Positions 46,887-58,060 of a stretch of 64,000 nucleotides of DNA are shown one piece after another. Each line of letters opens with the position of its first letter. Position 1 is the stretch's first letter. Location: the NCBI GenBank assembly GCA_013335115.1, contig JAAXWQ010000003.1, positions 186,001-250,000 on the forward strand, in the 5' to 3' direction. The stretch comes from Chlorobiaceae bacterium (GTDB lineage: Bacteria; Bacteroidota; Chlorobiia; Chlorobiales; Chlorobiaceae). Made by a program: the position numbers and the translations under genes. The notes below the pieces were generated by a model that saw nothing but the letters and a program-made list of their open reading frames with translations, ran no database searches and was not told where the DNA came from.

Positions 46887-48578
46887 GTGAACACCTTCCT
46901 CATCGACTATCAGCGGATACAGACGCCAAAAAGGGGATTTTCCCGCCTGTTCTGCGATTATACCTCCGAAGGCGAAGCGCGCTCGAAGCTCGTCTCGGCC
47001 TGCTTCCACCTCGACTACCGCAAAGACGCGGACTACTACCGCCACCTCGGGATCCTCGCATCCAGGAACTTCAGGCGCAAAGAGCTGACGGCGCTCCTCT
47101 TGCGGCAGAACCGCATGTTCGGCTGCACGGAACGCCATCTCCGGGAGATCGAAAAGCTCAACTCCCCTCGATGCATGGCCATCGTCACCGGCCAGCAGAC
47201 CGGATTGTTCACCGGCCCCCTCTACACCGTCTACAAGGCGCTGAGTGCCGTCGTCATGGCGGAAAAGCAGAAAGAGCTGTTTCCCGAATACGATTTCGTG
47301 CCGATCTTCTGGCTGGAAAGCGAAGACCACGACCTTGACGAAGCCTCGTCGACACTCCTCTTCTCCGGCAACGGACTCGTGAAGGTGGCTGCTGAAGCCG
47401 CCCACCGCCTGCCGGACCAGATGGTGGGGCCGACGCCGCTCGGCAGGAACATCGGCGAAACCGTCCGGCAGTTCCTCGAACTGCTGCCCGAATCCGATTT
47501 CAAACCAGGGATTGCCGAGCTGATCAGCTCCTGCTACGAACCCGACGCGACCTTTGAAAGCGCCTTTGCCCGGACCTTGATGAAGCTCTTCCGGGACCAT
47601 CCGCTCATCCTGCTCTCGACGAACGATCCGGAATTCAAGCGGCTTGCCGGCCCGGTGTTCTGCCGTGAGATCGAAACCTGCCCGGCGTCGTCCTACGACG
47701 TGGTCGAGCAAAGCTCGGTGCTCGAATCGATGGGCTACCCGGCGCAATCCAAGCCGCGTCCGGTGAACGCGTTCTACCTCAACCAGCTCGGGCAGCGCCA
47801 GAAGATCGAACAGCCGGTGCAAGACAGCTTCGTCATCCTGCCCGACCGCCAGAAATACTCGCGCCACCAGCTCATTGAAATCTGCCAGGACCATCCCGAA
47901 CGCTTCAGCCCGAACGTCATCCTGCGCCCCATCGTCCAGGATACCGTCCTGCCGACGTTCGCATATATCGCCGGACCGGGAGAGATCAGCTACCTCGCCC
48001 AGTACCGCAAGGCGTACGAACACTTCGGGCTCACCATGCCCTTCGTCATGCCAAGAGGCAGCTTCACGCTGGTTGAACCGAAGGTGACGCGCACCATGGA
48101 CAAGGTGCTCAAGGTGACCGGCAGGCCGAGCTTCTCGAGGAAACAGGTCTACGAAGCCGCATTCCAGGACCTCCAGCAGCTTCGCAAATCGATGGTATCG
48201 GGTGCCGAAAACCACGACATCGACATCCTGTTCGACCAGGCCGGGGCTGAAGTCGCCAGGGCCCTGTCGGCGCTCGAGCCGACGCTGGTCAAGATGGACC
48301 CGACACTCCAGCCGGTCCTCATGGCATCGTCGGGGCAGATCACGAAAATCATCGAGGGGATCCGGGAGAAAACCTATCGCGCCGGAAGGCGAAAGCACGA
48401 TGAACTGCTGCAGCAACTCGACCGGGCCGAGCTCAACCTCTTCCCTGAAGGCAAGCCCCAGGAGAGGGTCGTCAACATCTTCCACTACCTCAACAAATAC
48501 GGCCCAAGCCTCATCGACGACCTTATAAAGGTGCTGCAAGGCTACTCAGCCGAAGCCCACCTCATCGTGGAACTCTGA
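46887..48578 (+). CDS. bshC: Bacillithiol biosynthesis cysteine-adding enzyme BshC
   Basis: Adds cysteine to glucosaminyl-malate to finish bacillithiol, a low-molecular-weight thiol. The 563 residues have the family signature [20 protein letters not shown] (about 99-118), [14 protein letters not shown], and a C-terminal coiled coil (about 430-505). It starts with GTG directly after surE. Green sulfur bacteria make bacillithiol and an N-methylated form (known from C. tepidum), which fits a sulfide-oxidising lifestyle. The bshA and bshB steps are not in the window. A strong hairpin follows its stop codon after 39 bases. Confidence 0.93.
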
Positions 48579-48617: not shown

Positions 48618-48663
48618 GGTTAAAAGAAGAAGAGCGCCCAGAGGCGCTCTTCTTCTTTTAACC
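48618..48663. terminator. Perfect 21-bp bidirectional terminator between bshC and ccsA
   Basis: Left arm 48618-48638, loop CAGA, right arm 48643-48663, all paired. The ccsA stop codon (48658-48660) lies inside the right arm. The TTTTAA/TTAAAA ends give T-runs both ways. Confidence 0.88.
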
Positions 48664-49455
48664 AGAATAGGTGTGCACGCTGTTCTGGGCCGAGGGAAGG
48701 TAGTTGACGCCGAACCAGCAGACCAGCAGCACCACGAAGGCCAGGCCGAGGTACCACTGCAGCACGGTGACATCGGTCTTGCGAGCCACGAGGTGAAGGT
48801 AAGCCAGGTAGGCCAGCCAGGAGATGAATGCCCAGGTCTCTTTCGGGTCCCAGGTCCAGTAGTGGCCCCATGCCTCCTTGGCCCAGAGGGCGCCGAAGAC
48901 CAGACCGAAAGTGAGAAGCACAAAACCGAGCAGCGCGAGGTAATGCGACATCGACTCGGAGACCTTCGAGCTCCGGGAGCGGAACTTCAGCCAGAGGTTG
49001 TGCCCGCCGGCCACGGAAGATGCGGCGAGTAGCACATAGGCCACGAGATAGACCACCACGTGCGGCACGAACCACACGCTCTGCAGCGCCGGCATGAGCG
49101 CTTTCTGGAACACGTCCGGGTTCATGACGTTGATACCGAGGAACAGTGTCGCCAGGCCCATGCAGTAATACTTGAGCCAGCCGATCTTCCACCGGTACTC
49201 CACCAGGTACCCGACGACCGGGATCAGGGTTGCGTACCACAGGCGGGTCTCCCCGAGGGTCCTGAGCGGCGGCCGTTCCAGGGCGATCCAGTATGAGGCG
49301 AGGAACCAGGCGAGCAGCGCCGTGCCGCCGATCATCAGCATCCAGGATGCCGTGGCGGCGAGTCCGGATTTTTTCGCAGGTATCTGCAGCAGGCTGCCAA
49401 AGCCCCAGCAGGCGGCGGTGGTCACGGCGATGGCCGGAAATTCAACCAGGGTCAT
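48658..49455 (-). CDS. ccsA: Cytochrome c biogenesis haem handling protein CcsA/ResC
   Basis: Membrane half of the system II haem ligase. The 265 residues have about eight membrane helices and the conserved WWD-type haem-binding motif WGHYWTWDPKETWAFISW (about 205-222), with His residues in HVVVYL and YLAYLHL as likely axial ligands. It overlaps resB by four bases (ATGA), so translation is coupled. Its stop codon sits within a terminator hairpin. System II is the standard cytochrome c pathway in Chlorobi. Confidence 0.94.
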   Translation of the reverse strand: MTLVEFPAIAVTTAACWGFGSLLQIPAKKSGLAATASWMLMIGGTALLAWFLASYWIALERPPLRTLGETRLWYATLIPVVGYLVEYRWKIGWLKYYCMGLATLFLGINVMNPDVFQKALMPALQSVWFVPHVVVYLVAYVLLAASSVAGGHNLWLKFRSRSSKVSESMSHYLALLGFVLLTFGLVFGALWAKEAWGHYWTWDPKETWAFISWLAYLAYLHLVARKTDVTVLQWYLGLAFVVLLVCWFGVNYLPSAQNSVHTYSG

Positions 49456-50699
49456 GCCGCCTCCATTTTTTTAATGCCTTTCCAGAAAAAGAGCAGGTTG
49501 CCCGCCATGATCATGAAGAATCCGAGGTAGACCGCCGGAAGCCAGGGGTCGTTGACCGCCTCGACGAGGCTCATGGTCGACCAGCGGCCTGCCTTTTCAT
49601 CATACCCCATCTGATAGAGCTTCCATCCGAGGACATCGACGGGCTTGTTCACCTCGAGCACGCCCGGACGGTGCCCGCCCGATTCCGAACGGATCATGAC
49701 GCTCGACCTGAAAGCCTTGGGCGCCCCGGGGGCGATAACGATAAAATAGTTGCCGACAGGGATATACTGCGGCTTGATATCGGGGCCGCCGCCGTTGATC
49801 CATTGCTCGACCGGCGCTCGACCGGGTTCTTCGACGCGCACTTTCGCGAAAGGAACCCCTTTCATGCCTTTCGAAGGGAGGGGATTGCCCGCCTTGTCGG
49901 GCAGGGCATCGGGCCGGAAATCGGTGACCGTAGCGGTGGCGATGCCCGGCCAGACCGCACGGGCGCCCTTACGCACCTCAGGGACCGCCCCGGCCTTCTC
50001 GGCGACGACCTGGTCGGTCGCCGGGTCGTAAAGCGCGAACTGCGGGACGTATTCGTCGATCTCGAACTCCTTCAGGTAGATGGAAAACGGGATGCGGACA
50101 GGGTGCTCGGTCGGCATCTCATAAGCTACGTCGCTCTCCTTGCCTTCGTACAGCGGAATGACCAGGCGCCGCAGGTCGGACGTACCGGCAAGGCCACAGG
50201 CCAGCGCTATCCAGAATCCCCCATGGAACAGCATGAACTGGAGGTTCGAAAGCCTGAAGGGCACTATTTTCCAGAGCAGCGACAAGCCGAGGTTGAAGAG
50301 GAAAAGCAGGATGACGAAGGCGAAGGGCCAGCCCGAAAAAATCCCGTTGAGCCGAAGGGTGGCGACCAGGGAGCCTGCGGGAAGGGGATCCTGGGGAAGC
50401 ACCCCGCCGAAAAGCGACAACAATGCGAGGCCAATGATCAGGCTCAGGCCTACGGGAATCCCACCCAGCCAACTGACGACGGGGTGCTCCCTGAAACCGA
50501 ACCCGAAGGCCGCGATTGCCGAGGCGAACGCCGCAAGGAACAGCCCGTTGGCCGGCCAGCGGGGAATGGTGATGCCGCTTCCGGAGGTCAGCAGCTCGAT
50601 GGCGAATCCGGCGATGATGGCCGCCAGGGTGAACAATGCCGCAGCGCCGAAACCTTCGGGCGGTGACGACGGCATCTGGGGAGGTTTACTGCTTTGCAT
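49452..50699 (-). CDS. resB: Cytochrome c biogenesis protein ResB/Ccs1
   Basis: Partner of CcsA in system II, presenting the apocytochrome Cys-x2-Cys-His for haem ligation. 415 residues. Membrane helices lie at about 20-45, 50-75, 77-100, 115-140 and 385-405, around a long periplasmic domain with LFHGGFWIALACGLAG, SDLRRLVIPLYEG, NPLPSKGMKGVPFAKVRV and the C-terminal VNDPWLPAVYLGFFMIMAGNLLFFWKG. The start at 50699 is used because it stands five bases after the regulator's stop; an earlier ATG (50741) overlaps that gene. It follows the HTH regulator in one operon. Confidence 0.9.
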   Translation of the reverse strand: MQSSKPPQMPSSPPEGFGAAALFTLAAIIAGFAIELLTSGSGITIPRWPANGLFLAAFASAIAAFGFGFREHPVVSWLGGIPVGLSLIIGLALLSLFGGVLPQDPLPAGSLVATLRLNGIFSGWPFAFVILLFLFNLGLSLLWKIVPFRLSNLQFMLFHGGFWIALACGLAGTSDLRRLVIPLYEGKESDVAYEMPTEHPVRIPFSIYLKEFEIDEYVPQFALYDPATDQVVAEKAGAVPEVRKGARAVWPGIATATVTDFRPDALPDKAGNPLPSKGMKGVPFAKVRVEEPGRAPVEQWINGGGPDIKPQYIPVGNYFIVIAPGAPKAFRSSVMIRSESGGHRPGVLEVNKPVDVLGWKLYQMGYDEKAGRWSTMSLVEAVNDPWLPAVYLGFFMIMAGNLLFFWKGIKKMEAA

Positions 50700-50703
50700 G
50701 GTC

Positions 50704-51033
50704 TCAGGTTGATTTTTCGCAGGAACCGATGACGTCGACATCGTCCTTCTTCAGGATCTGGCAGCACTTGCAGACGATGGCGTGCAACTCGCTGACGGCA
50801 GCTCCGGCAACGATCTTCTCCGTGGCGTTCTTGATCTCGTGCCGGTAATCACGGCTTTTGATGTTCTGCTGGCCCCGTTTCTTGTGCAGGTACTGGGAAA
50901 CCGCCGCTGGCGTGACGCCCAGCAGCATCGCCGCTTTTGACTGCGTCATGCCGGTCTTGACCAGTTCCTTGGCAAGGTCGGCCCTGATCTGGGGCAGGTA
51001 ATACCATACAGCTTTTTCACAGGGAAAAATCAT
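50704..51033 (-). CDS. Cys-rich HTH transcriptional regulator heading the ccs operon
   Basis: A 109-residue protein. A helix-turn-helix of XRE type (about 20-55; MTQSKAAMLLGVTPAAVSQYLHKKRG) precedes a basic helix and a C-terminal metal- or redox-like cluster: Cys-x-Cys-Cys (VCKCCQ) near 90 and a further Cys near 105, plus Cys5 at the N-terminus. Compact HTH proteins with such Cys sets occur in archaea and anaerobes and bind metal or Fe-S, but no exact family was assigned. It is separated from resB by four bases and divergent from a haem-binding protein gene, so control of cytochrome c maturation by redox or metal state is inferred. Confidence 0.75.
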   Translation of the reverse strand: MIFPCEKAVWYYLPQIRADLAKELVKTGMTQSKAAMLLGVTPAAVSQYLHKKRGQQNIKSRDYRHEIKNATEKIVAGAAVSELHAIVCKCCQILKKDDVDVIGSCEKST

Positions 51034-51226
51034 CAGTCAAAACAAATAAATTGAGAGGGATACAACTTCACTTCAGGGCTTCCGCAGGGTGACGGATATG
51101 GATGCACATGCAATACAGTAGCATAATCAGCAAAACTGGCGAAATCATCGGTCCCGATGCCGTGATTCGACTTAATTATATAAATTTCCTCCACAATGTC
51201 ACCATGCAAGCCCCGACAAAAACAGC

Positions 51227-51691
51227 ATGAACCCCAAGTCCAGTAACGTTGCCGGATGGTTTGTCCTCGGGCTGATGCTCTGCCAGTTCGTGCCGCTCGG
51301 CAGGTCCGTCGACCCGGCCCCGAGCAGATGGGGTGCGATCCCGCTTCCGGAACGCCGGGTACTGGAGGCAAGATGCGGACAGTGCCACTCCAACAATACC
51401 CGCTGGCCGAACAGCGCCTTCGTCGCCCCGCTCTCGTGGTTTGTTGTCCACGAAGTGCGTAAAGCACGGCTGTCAGTGAACCTCCAGGACGCTGCCAGTG
51501 CAAAAAAGGTCATCCACCTGCTGATAGAATCGGGCAGGGCACCTGGCCATGCGTCCATCCCCGGCTTCGTGAACCCGGAGCTGACGCCGGATGAGCGCAA
51601 ACTGCTGCTCGACTGGTCTTCGACTCGGGAACAAGAACCTCGGGGCGACGTTAAAAATTCAGCGCCTGACCCCCGGGACAGAACCCCCTGA
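51227..51691 (+). CDS. Exported haem-binding domain protein (single CxxCH)
   Basis: 154 residues with an N-terminal hydrophobic signal or anchor (about 9-27) and the Haem_bd-type domain (PF14376): RCGQCHSNNTRWPNSAFVAP, with Cys50, Cys53 and His54, then LSWFVVHEVRKARLSVN. The motif needs the CcsA/ResB machinery for covalent haem, which is encoded just across a 193-bp divergent gap. Usual family lengths are 130-170. It probably carries electrons or senses redox state in the periplasm. The C-terminal 30 residues are polar and disordered. Confidence 0.85.
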   Translation: MNPKSSNVAGWFVLGLMLCQFVPLGRSVDPAPSRWGAIPLPERRVLEARCGQCHSNNTRWPNSAFVAPLSWFVVHEVRKARLSVNLQDAASAKKVIHLLIESGRAPGHASIPGFVNPELTPDERKLLLDWSSTREQEPRGDVKNSAPDPRDRTP

Positions 51692-55293: not shown

Positions 55294-56523
55294 ATGCATC
55301 AATGTCCGGTAACCGGCTTACCGATCACCGAAAGAAGCCAATGGAGTTTTGATAGCCCGAAAGGAGACTATACAAAAAAATTCACGCTGATCGGCAAAGA
55401 CATCATCCACGTCGAAAAAAGCGCCAATCACGGCATTGTCCTCGAGCACCTCGACCAGGCGACACTTTCGGTACTGGTAAAGGAAGAGAAGCTTTCCGGC
55501 AAGCCGTTGCACATCCTGATCGACTGCACGAACATTGCCGGCTTCAACTACGCATACAAGAAGGAATTCACCAACATCATCTTCAACTGGAACCCCGATT
55601 TCAAGATCGTCGTGTTCTATAACATCGATCCCGAGATCAGGCTCCAGCTCGAAATGCTCCGCTCCATAGCCCCCCATGGCCTCACCTTCGTGATGAGCGA
55701 CACCTATGAAGAGGCCATCTCCGGCATCATGGCCTTCAAATCGGGAAAAACGCCCGAAGTCGACGGCCGGGAAACACGCGGGGGCCAGGACCCGCTCATC
55801 AGGGCAGAGTTCCTGTCGACCCTGGCCAGGATGGCATGGCTGAAGATGTTTGACCAGCAGATCTATCTTCCACCTGAAACCCACGTATCCTGGCTGTTCT
55901 TCAAGGCACTCGAAGCCATACAGGGCGACTTCAAGGCCATGGAACTCGAACATGAAACGATACTGGATCGGGCTGTCGACGACTGCCGGCACCAACTTGC
56001 CCAGAAAACAACAGCACTGAACGCCCAGATAGAGCTCAACCGGAAAAACGCACAGCAGTTCCGGGAAGAACGGCTTGCGCTGGCATCAAGGGTTTCGACC
56101 CATGATTTCGAATCGACCAGGATTTCGATGGCCAATGCGGAGAAGACATCGGCCCTGAAGAACTTGTGTGAACTGATCGCCGACCTTGATGCCGATCCTC
56201 AAATCAAGCAGAAGCTCACGAGCTACTGCCTCAACCTCGTGGAAACCGGCCAGAAAGAGCAACAGCTCAACACCGAACTCACCGAAGCGGATACGGCATT
56301 CATTTCGATGCTGCAGAAAAAACATCCGAACCTGAATCAGCGCGAACTGAGAATCTGCCTTCTGATAAAACTCGACTACAACTCCCGCGACATTTCACGC
56401 ATGATGGGCCTGTCAGTCAGGGGGATAGAGAGCACCAGGTATCGACTCCACCGTAAAATAGGTATCGACAAACATCGCTCAATGAAAACCTATCTGACAA
56501 ACCTGCCGATAGCCAACTACTGA
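55294..56523 (+). CDS. LuxR-type regulator with unknown sensor domain, copy 1
   Basis: A 409-residue protein with three parts. The N-terminal domain (about 1-165) opens CPVTGLPITERSQW and has a mixed alpha/beta pattern (LIDCTNIAGFNYAYKKEF, FKIVVFYNIDPEIR) recalling STAS-like folds. A charged coiled coil follows (about 215-325), and a C-terminal LuxR/GerE-like HTH has NQRELRICLLIKLDYNSRDI and GIESTRYRLHRKIGIDKHRS. There is no receiver domain and no membrane segment, so it should be a cytoplasmic sensor-regulator. A close paralogue lies 316 bp downstream. No known family was assigned; the ligand and targets are unknown. Confidence 0.75.
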   Translation: MHQCPVTGLPITERSQWSFDSPKGDYTKKFTLIGKDIIHVEKSANHGIVLEHLDQATLSVLVKEEKLSGKPLHILIDCTNIAGFNYAYKKEFTNIIFNWNPDFKIVVFYNIDPEIRLQLEMLRSIAPHGLTFVMSDTYEEAISGIMAFKSGKTPEVDGRETRGGQDPLIRAEFLSTLARMAWLKMFDQQIYLPPETHVSWLFFKALEAIQGDFKAMELEHETILDRAVDDCRHQLAQKTTALNAQIELNRKNAQQFREERLALASRVSTHDFESTRISMANAEKTSALKNLCELIADLDADPQIKQKLTSYCLNLVETGQKEQQLNTELTEADTAFISMLQKKHPNLNQRELRICLLIKLDYNSRDISRMMGLSVRGIESTRYRLHRKIGIDKHRSMKTYLTNLPIANY

Positions 56524-56839: not shown

Positions 56840-58060
56840 ATGAAAACCTGCCCAACGTCCGGCCTGCCGGTCACCGCCAAACCTCACTGGAAATCCGAAC
56901 ATCCCGGATACACCAAGCACCTTGAACTGATAGGAAACGATATCCTGCACGCATACGTCGAAGCAACCCAGCCGGTGACCCTCGATACCATGAGCAACGA
57001 AGTGGTTAAAACCATTATCAAGGAAAGCGGGCTGCAAGACACGATGCTTTACTCGATCTGGGACATGAAGAACGTCGTCGACATATCCTATAATTACAAG
57101 CAGGGAATCAATGACCTGATCTACCACCAGGGACCAAGGTTCGTGGCCGTCGTGTTCTTCAATATCGAACCAGCCTGCAGGATAATCCTTGAAACCTTTG
57201 CGGCCATTGTGCCGAACGACATGACCGTGCTGCTCAGGGAGGACTACGGGGATGCCATCCGGACCATCACTGATTTCAAGTCAGGGAAAGGGGAAGAGGC
57301 CCGGCATACCGGGCAGGGAACCAATAGTGATTCCATCCTGAAAAATGAATTCCTTGCTGCCGTCGCCAGGATTTCATGGCTGAACATGCTCAACCAGCAA
57401 ATCCCCCTGCCTCCGGCAGAAAGCCCGTACTACCCTTACTTCAAAGCTATCGCACACTTGCAGGAAGACCTGAAGGCGCGCGAAGCGCTTCAGGAAAAGG
57501 ATTTGCAGCACCTGAAGGGGGACAGCGAGCAGCGCCTGACCCAGAAAATCATCCTCCTGAACGCCCAGGTCGAACTCAACAGGAAGGAACAGCAACAGTT
57601 CGCACAGGAAAAAGCTGCGCTGAAATCGAGGATCTCGGCACAGGAGATGGAGCTGACCAGGATCTCGACGGCCGTCGGTGAAAAGAGCGCAGCCCTGCAC
57701 CTGCTCTGCGACCAGATCAAGGGCCTGGACATCGAACAGCACTCCAAGCACCGGATGATCGAGCAGTGCCAGGGAATGCTTGAGACCGAACTGACCGAAA
57801 AAAGGCTCAAGACGGAGTTGACGACCGGTGACTCCGAGTTCCTTTCGAAGCTGCAGAAGAGGCATCCCAACCTCAACCAGCGTGAGCTTCGTGTCGGCTT
57901 GATGGTAAAGCTGAATTACGACACCAGGGAGATCGCCCGCTCAATCGGCATCTCGACCCGCGGTATGGAGAGCATCCGCTACCGGATGCACAAAAAGCTG
58001 AAACTCGACAAGCACAAGTCGATCAAGACCTACCTCTCCGAGCTCGCCGAAGAGCGCTGA
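56840..58060 (+). CDS. LuxR-type regulator with unknown sensor domain, copy 2
   Basis: 406-residue paralogue of the gene at 55294, collinear over its full length. The N-terminus reads CPTSGLPVTAKPHW, the middle has MLYSIWDMKNVVDISYNYKQG and FVAVVFFNIEPACRI, and there is a long coiled coil (about 220-330). The C-terminal HTH has NQRELRVGLMVKLNYDTREIARSIG and GMESIRYRMHKKLKLDKHKSIK. Two paralogues in tandem suggest a duplication followed by divergence, or a heteromeric pair. It is close to a convergent aldehyde dehydrogenase gene. Confidence 0.75.
   Translation: MKTCPTSGLPVTAKPHWKSEHPGYTKHLELIGNDILHAYVEATQPVTLDTMSNEVVKTIIKESGLQDTMLYSIWDMKNVVDISYNYKQGINDLIYHQGPRFVAVVFFNIEPACRIILETFAAIVPNDMTVLLREDYGDAIRTITDFKSGKGEEARHTGQGTNSDSILKNEFLAAVARISWLNMLNQQIPLPPAESPYYPYFKAIAHLQEDLKAREALQEKDLQHLKGDSEQRLTQKIILLNAQVELNRKEQQQFAQEKAALKSRISAQEMELTRISTAVGEKSAALHLLCDQIKGLDIEQHSKHRMIEQCQGMLETELTEKRLKTELTTGDSEFLSKLQKRHPNLNQRELRVGLMVKLNYDTREIARSIGISTRGMESIRYRMHKKLKLDKHKSIKTYLSELAEER

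Follow-up and report, generated by a model that had tools for sequence, protein, structure and literature searches.

What does a short Cys-rich protein, encoded between a cytochrome c maturation unit and a divergent haem-protein gene, control in green sulfur bacteria, and which signal could it read? The window (the whole stretch of 64,000 nucleotides that was analysed) carries on its minus strand a 109-aa putative helix-turn-helix (HTH) regulator (50704..51033), recognised from its ORF, sequence and alignments, followed by resB and ccsA (48658..49455, minus). The longest resB ORF spans 49452-50741 of the minus strand; the gene is probably shorter (49452..50699) because the ATG at 50699, four bases past the HTH stop, matches the starts of orthologous resB genes. 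ResB scores 36.6 bits against Pfam PF05140 (cut-off 24.6) and has zero NCBIfam matches, while CcsA scores 105.8 bits against PF01578 (cut-off 29.9) and 135.2, under the cut-off of 187.6, against the NCBIfam CcsB model TIGR03144. The two neighbours thus carry ResB and cytochrome c assembly domains, as in System II cytochrome c biogenesis. Upstream, the HTH gene shares an intergenic region of 193 bp (51034..51226) with a divergent gene (51227..51691, plus), whose product has an N-terminal hydrophobic stretch and a CGQCH haem motif (codons at 51374-51388) and belongs to the Haem_bd family with 49.9 bits against PF14376 (cut-off 27). ORFs, domain score and gap agree with a sequence-only reading of this DNA, which had placed a haem-protein gene opposite the HTH gene at this distance.

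Other features of the same genome deserve mention. A gene named by eye bshC (bacillithiol synthesis; 46887-48578, plus) lies downstream of ccsA and convergent to it. Two adjoining ORFs of the plus strand (55294-56523 and 56840-58060) encode similar proteins of ~400 aa each. Inspected by eye, both have a C-P-x-T/S-G-L-P motif close to the amino terminus and resemble an HTH at the other end; the pair looks like a putative regulator gene duplicated in tandem. The genome has no strong second copy of the HTH gene, the next-best match having an E-value of 0.0097. It encodes a second, better-scoring Haem_bd protein (G000:C7:146330-146698, 121.7 bits), and two such proteins per genome are found in most Chlorobiaceae genomes searched.

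The HTH protein scores under the cut-offs of all Pfam and NCBIfam families. Its match to HTH_3 (PF01381) reaches 20 bits for a Pfam cut-off of 23, a threshold passed by L057 (23.7) and L104 (24.8) among the six archaeal homologues scanned. The HTH assignment made earlier from the sequence is supported. The other weak matches in the two databases are to HTH domains of Cro/XRE and other kinds. No Rrf2 domain appears among them up to an E-value of 0.1, and a regulator of the Rrf2 or IscR type was rejected on this ground. Sequence searches of solved structures do not find a close relative; a profile search hits the lambda repressor-like structure 28tn (E 7e-4). The AlphaFold model is all-helical (mean pLDDT 76.9, pTM 0.69), with helices at residues 6-26, 31-38, 42-50, 61-75 and 80-103. 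Of the 402 Foldseek matches to this model, none has an E-value of 0.001 or lower, and the best hits, all with E > 0.4, are mainly HTH proteins. The archaeal family of the protein is one that we take to be COG2522, whose HTH presumably also begins archaeal ThiR. Neither this HTH family nor a regulator of such kind for ccs genes is described in the literature searched by titles and abstract openings, which is weak evidence of absence. From these comparisons, the window protein is best assigned as a Cys-rich Cro/XRE-like regulator placed outside the curated families at their cut-offs.

The tail of the protein reads C88-K-C90-C91 (codons at 50761..50772, minus) and includes a distal Cys104. A further residue, Cys5, in the amino-terminal M-I-F-P-C-E (codon at 51019..51021, minus), was overlooked in the sequence-only reading and is conserved like the C-x-C-C cluster. 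A sequence search yielded 55 relatives: Chlorobiota contribute 51 (L005-L055), archaea four (L056-L059). Among the 52 bacterial copies that include the window, Cys5 is present in 52 and C-x-C-C in all 51 that contig ends leave whole, counts drawn from a fetch that favours Cys-bearing copies since its search patterns were derived from the query and some included Cys. A second set of 34 loci (30 genomes), taken by profile searches among the best-scoring copies, has C-x-C-C in 34/34 and Cys5 in 34/34, with an amino-terminal P-C-E-K in 33 and P-C-E-N in L076. Cys5 and C-x-C-C are also found in the five nearest archaeal homologues. P4, C5, E6, C88, C90 and C91 are among the invariant columns of a 17-row alignment including archaeal rows, and they stay invariant or nearly so in a 55-row alignment to which the nanoarchaeal L059, devoid of the Cys set, was added. 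Within the tail, C-x-C-C is strictly kept but Cys104 is not: an extra Cys past the cluster occurs in 48 of the 51 copies at varying positions. Poor conservation of the Cys in orthologues, which would have refuted the sequence-only reading, is not seen for the core set Cys5 and Cys88/90/91. This set may plausibly bind an Fe-S cluster or a metal.

The profile search detects the HTH gene in 84 of 86 Chlorobiaceae genomes; together with Cys5 in all 52 bacterial copies read, this argues that it is not a chance ORF. At E 1e-8, all 84 matches obtained in the 394 genomes searched of the phylum belong to Chlorobiaceae and none to the 308 other genomes. The sister families (12 genomes) yield a single weak match (E 7e-4) with a stop inside. 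Apart from Chlorobiaceae, the closest relatives found are archaeal, in records that are metagenome-derived. The phylum of L059 has matches in 171 of 279 genomes at E 1e-12. That of the Altiarchaeota-type relatives has matches in 9 of 29 at E 0.001, one of which (L100 in G107) goes through a transposase-like protein. A midpoint-rooted tree was built from 119 columns and 48 rows: 8 bacterial sequences, the 15 archaeal ones with Cys5, plus 25 out of the 77 archaeal ones that lack it. The Chlorobiaceae form a clade (100/100) that is sister to the archaeal L095 with values of 98/79, just below the support mark, and nests inside the archaeal C-x-C-C group, the wider groups having 98/87 and 100/98. 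Judging from alignment and tree, the Chlorobiaceae protein shares ancestry within an archaeal PCE-HTH-CxCC group and has its Cys set. Since Altiarchaeota-type homologues enclose the Chlorobiaceae clade in the tree, the simplest reading is a transfer of the gene from archaea to the Chlorobiaceae ancestor. The tree suggests this direction, which we infer from 119 columns with midpoint rooting.

The covariation of the Cys residues was followed in 92 aligned archaeal sequences, namely the best-ranked 80 matches of the phylum of L059 and 12 from the Altiarchaeota-type phylum. Each of the 15 sequences that carry Cys5 also has Cys88 and Cys91, whereas a single one of the 77 lacking Cys5 does (L099, the sole exception to the rule; Fisher p 2e-16 with relatedness of the sequences ignored). 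These counts do not represent independent events and may reflect a single change, because the 25 tree rows without Cys5 form one clade. Position 5 is Gln in 76 of the 77 sequences that have no Cys5, and many have Gln88. Cys90 is restricted to the five C-x-C-C members. The wider archaeal homologues have CxxC or CxxH tails and fall in types PCE/CxxC and PQE/CxxH. In the structural model of the window protein, Cys5 lies just ahead of helix 1 and Cys88/90/91 within the last helix; the co-occurrence pattern is what one would expect if residue 5 touched this carboxyl-terminal helix. One archaeal genome (G126) has five copies of the wider family (L098 and L101-L104), two of them less than 2.7 kb apart on contig C66.

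Gene order was covered for the five archaeal C-x-C-C members. All five are divergent from their upstream neighbour, whose cys/met names are based on matches to broad families (PALP, Abhydrolase_1, Cys_Met_Meta_PP, Hexapep) and on gene grouping. The neighbour is cysK in L056 and L110, accompanied by cysE in the latter. In L058 it is metY, part of a metY-metX-cysK-cysE cluster in which cysK, metX and cysE are named by eye only. L057 and L111 face CDGSH-type genes, with scores for a Pfam cut-off of 29.5 of 26.9 in L057, where the contig stops inside the gene, and of 129.8 in L111.

In Chlorobiaceae, the divergent partner is the haem gene, found by tblastn in 43 of 51 loci; an ORF with a CxxCH motif lies opposite the HTH gene in 42 of the 51, L053 having been missed by the ORF filter. 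Among the eight loci without a divergent haem gene, one (L036) is truncated at a contig end and the other seven lack the gene (7/50 assessable). The HTH-haem gap measures 44-69 bp, from longest-ORF starts, in 24 of the 26 loci with a CxxCH ORF among L021-L055, and 16 bp in L035 and L039. With so short a gap, a shared regulatory region is nearly forced. Seven loci (L022, L026, L027, L029, L033, L043 and L046) keep the HTH gene with neither a divergent haem gene nor resB-ccsA adjoining it; as both are missing alongside, the regulator must serve another use there.

Conservation of the intergenic region is highest next to the haem gene start. An AT-rich block just 5' of this start (51170..51203), a candidate promoter or operator, has GGTGACATTGT-like and GGAAATTTATATAATTAA-like segments common to the window and partly kept in five near relatives. 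Some Chlorobaculum-type relatives have in the same intergenic region a GTTAAC-N3-GTTAAC repeat that could be an operator in their loci; the window's genome has no such site. A scan of the 21 genomes of the genus finds seven distinct sites in five genomes. Four are intergenic at this locus (two overlapping in G009, one in G014 and one in G017) and three are elsewhere. Genome-wide the reversed control pattern is just as frequent, with 7 sites in 7 genomes. We take it as a lead and not as evidence since the pattern was picked from the same loci.

The small HTH gene divergent from one redox or sulfur gene and the four invariant Cys make a local autoregulated sensor the simplest reading. The protein probably switches the haem gene in response to iron-sulfur, metal or redox cues. 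We privilege, with confidence a little short of even, the hypothesis of a local autoregulated regulator with a putative four-Cys metal or Fe-S site, its target being the redox or sulfur gene on the other side of the intergenic region. Against it stand the seven loci devoid of a divergent haem gene, the lack of independence of the Cys5/88/91 counts with their exception L099, the sub-threshold HTH_3 match, the weak Foldseek hits and the outcome of the operator scan.

Two other roles of the Cys set can explain its conservation. The residues could form a cofactor-free thiol switch, in which disulfides or persulfides produced under oxidants or sulfide alter DNA binding. Chlorobiaceae oxidise sulfide, and genes of cysteine or methionine synthesis face three of the five archaeal C-x-C-C homologues, both of which favour such a switch. 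A precedent exists in MsrR, an XRE protein described as sensing through a thiol and controlling its own divergent region (PMC7532634). However, MsrR relies on one Cys where four are invariant here, and many of the wider archaeal homologues have CxxC and CxxH tails resembling metal sites. We prefer an Fe-S or metal site to a bare thiol switch because the neighbours are sulfur and Fe-S genes in archaea and a haem gene in bacteria, and because Chlorobiaceae are anaerobes; the switch appears rather unlikely. The same CxxC/CxxH tails would also suit a structural zinc, held by the Cys set to fold the carboxyl-terminal helix of a regulator that answers another cue or its own level only. Where positions 5 and 88 do not hold Cys, Gln often occupies both, as a structural contact predicts. 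The presence of redox or sulfur genes next to the regulator in both domains of life goes against a purely structural role, which we hold to be unlikely.

The sequence-only reading had proposed instead a dedicated regulator of cytochrome c maturation, with resB-ccsA as main target. Of 50 Chlorobiaceae loci, 22 have resB downstream of the HTH gene and the other 28 a convergent bshC, one more locus being cut; ccsA is also visible in 18 of the 22 resB loci, and the remainder end too early. In 20 of these 22 loci an in-frame resB ATG lies 3-24 bases past the HTH stop, and in L007 and L012 the nearest one overlaps the end of the HTH gene. Linkage was called from the best HTH match of each genome when ccsA was within 2.5 kb on the same strand. 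It is found in 23 of 84 genomes overall and in 19 of the 21 of the window's genus, the two others having ccsA elsewhere: in G008 both genes lie close to where contigs end, and the ccsA contig of G017 also bears a partial second match to the HTH. In the sister genus ccsA is linked in 4 of 63 genomes, elsewhere in 53, a count that contig breaks can inflate, and has no match in 6; resB-ccsA is located in another place in the three regions inspected. The HTH gene thus heads resB-ccsA, as had been claimed, in the window's genus but in few genomes of its sister, and the divergent haem gene is a better-kept partner than resB-ccsA. The tight operon of one genus supports a part in cytochrome c maturation, but its rarity in the sister genus and the different neighbours of the archaeal homologues make a regulator dedicated to this process very improbable.

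The favoured local autoregulated regulator would operate as follows. A small Cro/XRE-like DNA-binding protein of archaeal family would bring Cys5, Cys88, Cys90 and Cys91 together in a single metal or Fe-S site joining the start of helix 1 to the carboxyl-terminal helix. Its putative dimer would bind the intergenic DNA that its gene shares with the divergent haem gene and, if it behaves like other XRE regulators encoded divergently, would most likely repress both sides. The DNA would be released once the cofactor is lost or altered, be it through oxygen, scarcity of iron, or thiols that are oxidised or modified by sulfur. Such release would also raise expression of resB-ccsA in the window's genus, where these genes are predicted to attach haem to proteins of the c type, the divergent haem protein among them; in most of the sister genus, the haem gene would be the sole neighbour left for the regulator. 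A broader scenario, which we put forward tentatively, is that of a regulator family built on the Cro/XRE fold and bearing four Cys in an Fe-S or persulfide site, born in archaea, transferred to the Chlorobiaceae ancestor and rewired there to a haem protein and, in one genus, also to the haem-attachment machinery. If so, the archaeal members may guard sulfur-assimilation or CDGSH Fe-S genes, and the Cro/XRE fold would have a Cys-ligated Fe-S sensor. Green sulfur bacteria are strict anaerobes in which, to our knowledge, the control of cytochromes and iron-sulfur proteins is poorly mapped. A near-universal Chlorobiaceae regulator with invariant Cys and archaeal kin near sulfur or CDGSH-type genes is a testable candidate for a sensor of oxygen, iron or sulfide.

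Among known systems, NsrR is of the Rrf2 type, unlike the window protein, which has no Rrf2 match in Pfam or NCBIfam. The two would resemble each other as small DNA-binding proteins with few Cys ligands for a cluster (PMC5411485). Xtr of Clostridioides difficile belongs to the XRE family and activates a 4Fe-4S protein gene (PMC13260099). Its description names homologues in Listeria and Enterococcus and gives, for the knockout, a gene of 740 bp; on this published account, Xtr was set apart from the window regulator by its larger gene and by these homologues (PMC13260099). A further likeness, by description, is to the XRE-type MsrR of Corynebacterium glutamicum, which is divergent from its target, represses both sides and senses oxidation; its report attributes this to disulfide dimerisation through a single Cys62, compared with the four invariant Cys of the similarly divergent, XRE-like window regulator (PMC7532634). 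The archaeal relatives share with the window protein a P-C/Q-E start, the HTH core and a Cys-rich tail, and their wider types differ from it by an additional CxxH/CxxC site. The five C-x-C-C members also have the divergent gene order of Chlorobiaceae, with cysK, metX/metY, cysE or CDGSH-type genes as neighbours instead of a haem-protein gene. This comparison would illustrate a regulator crossing domains with its target changed and its putative sensing site and divergent layout kept.
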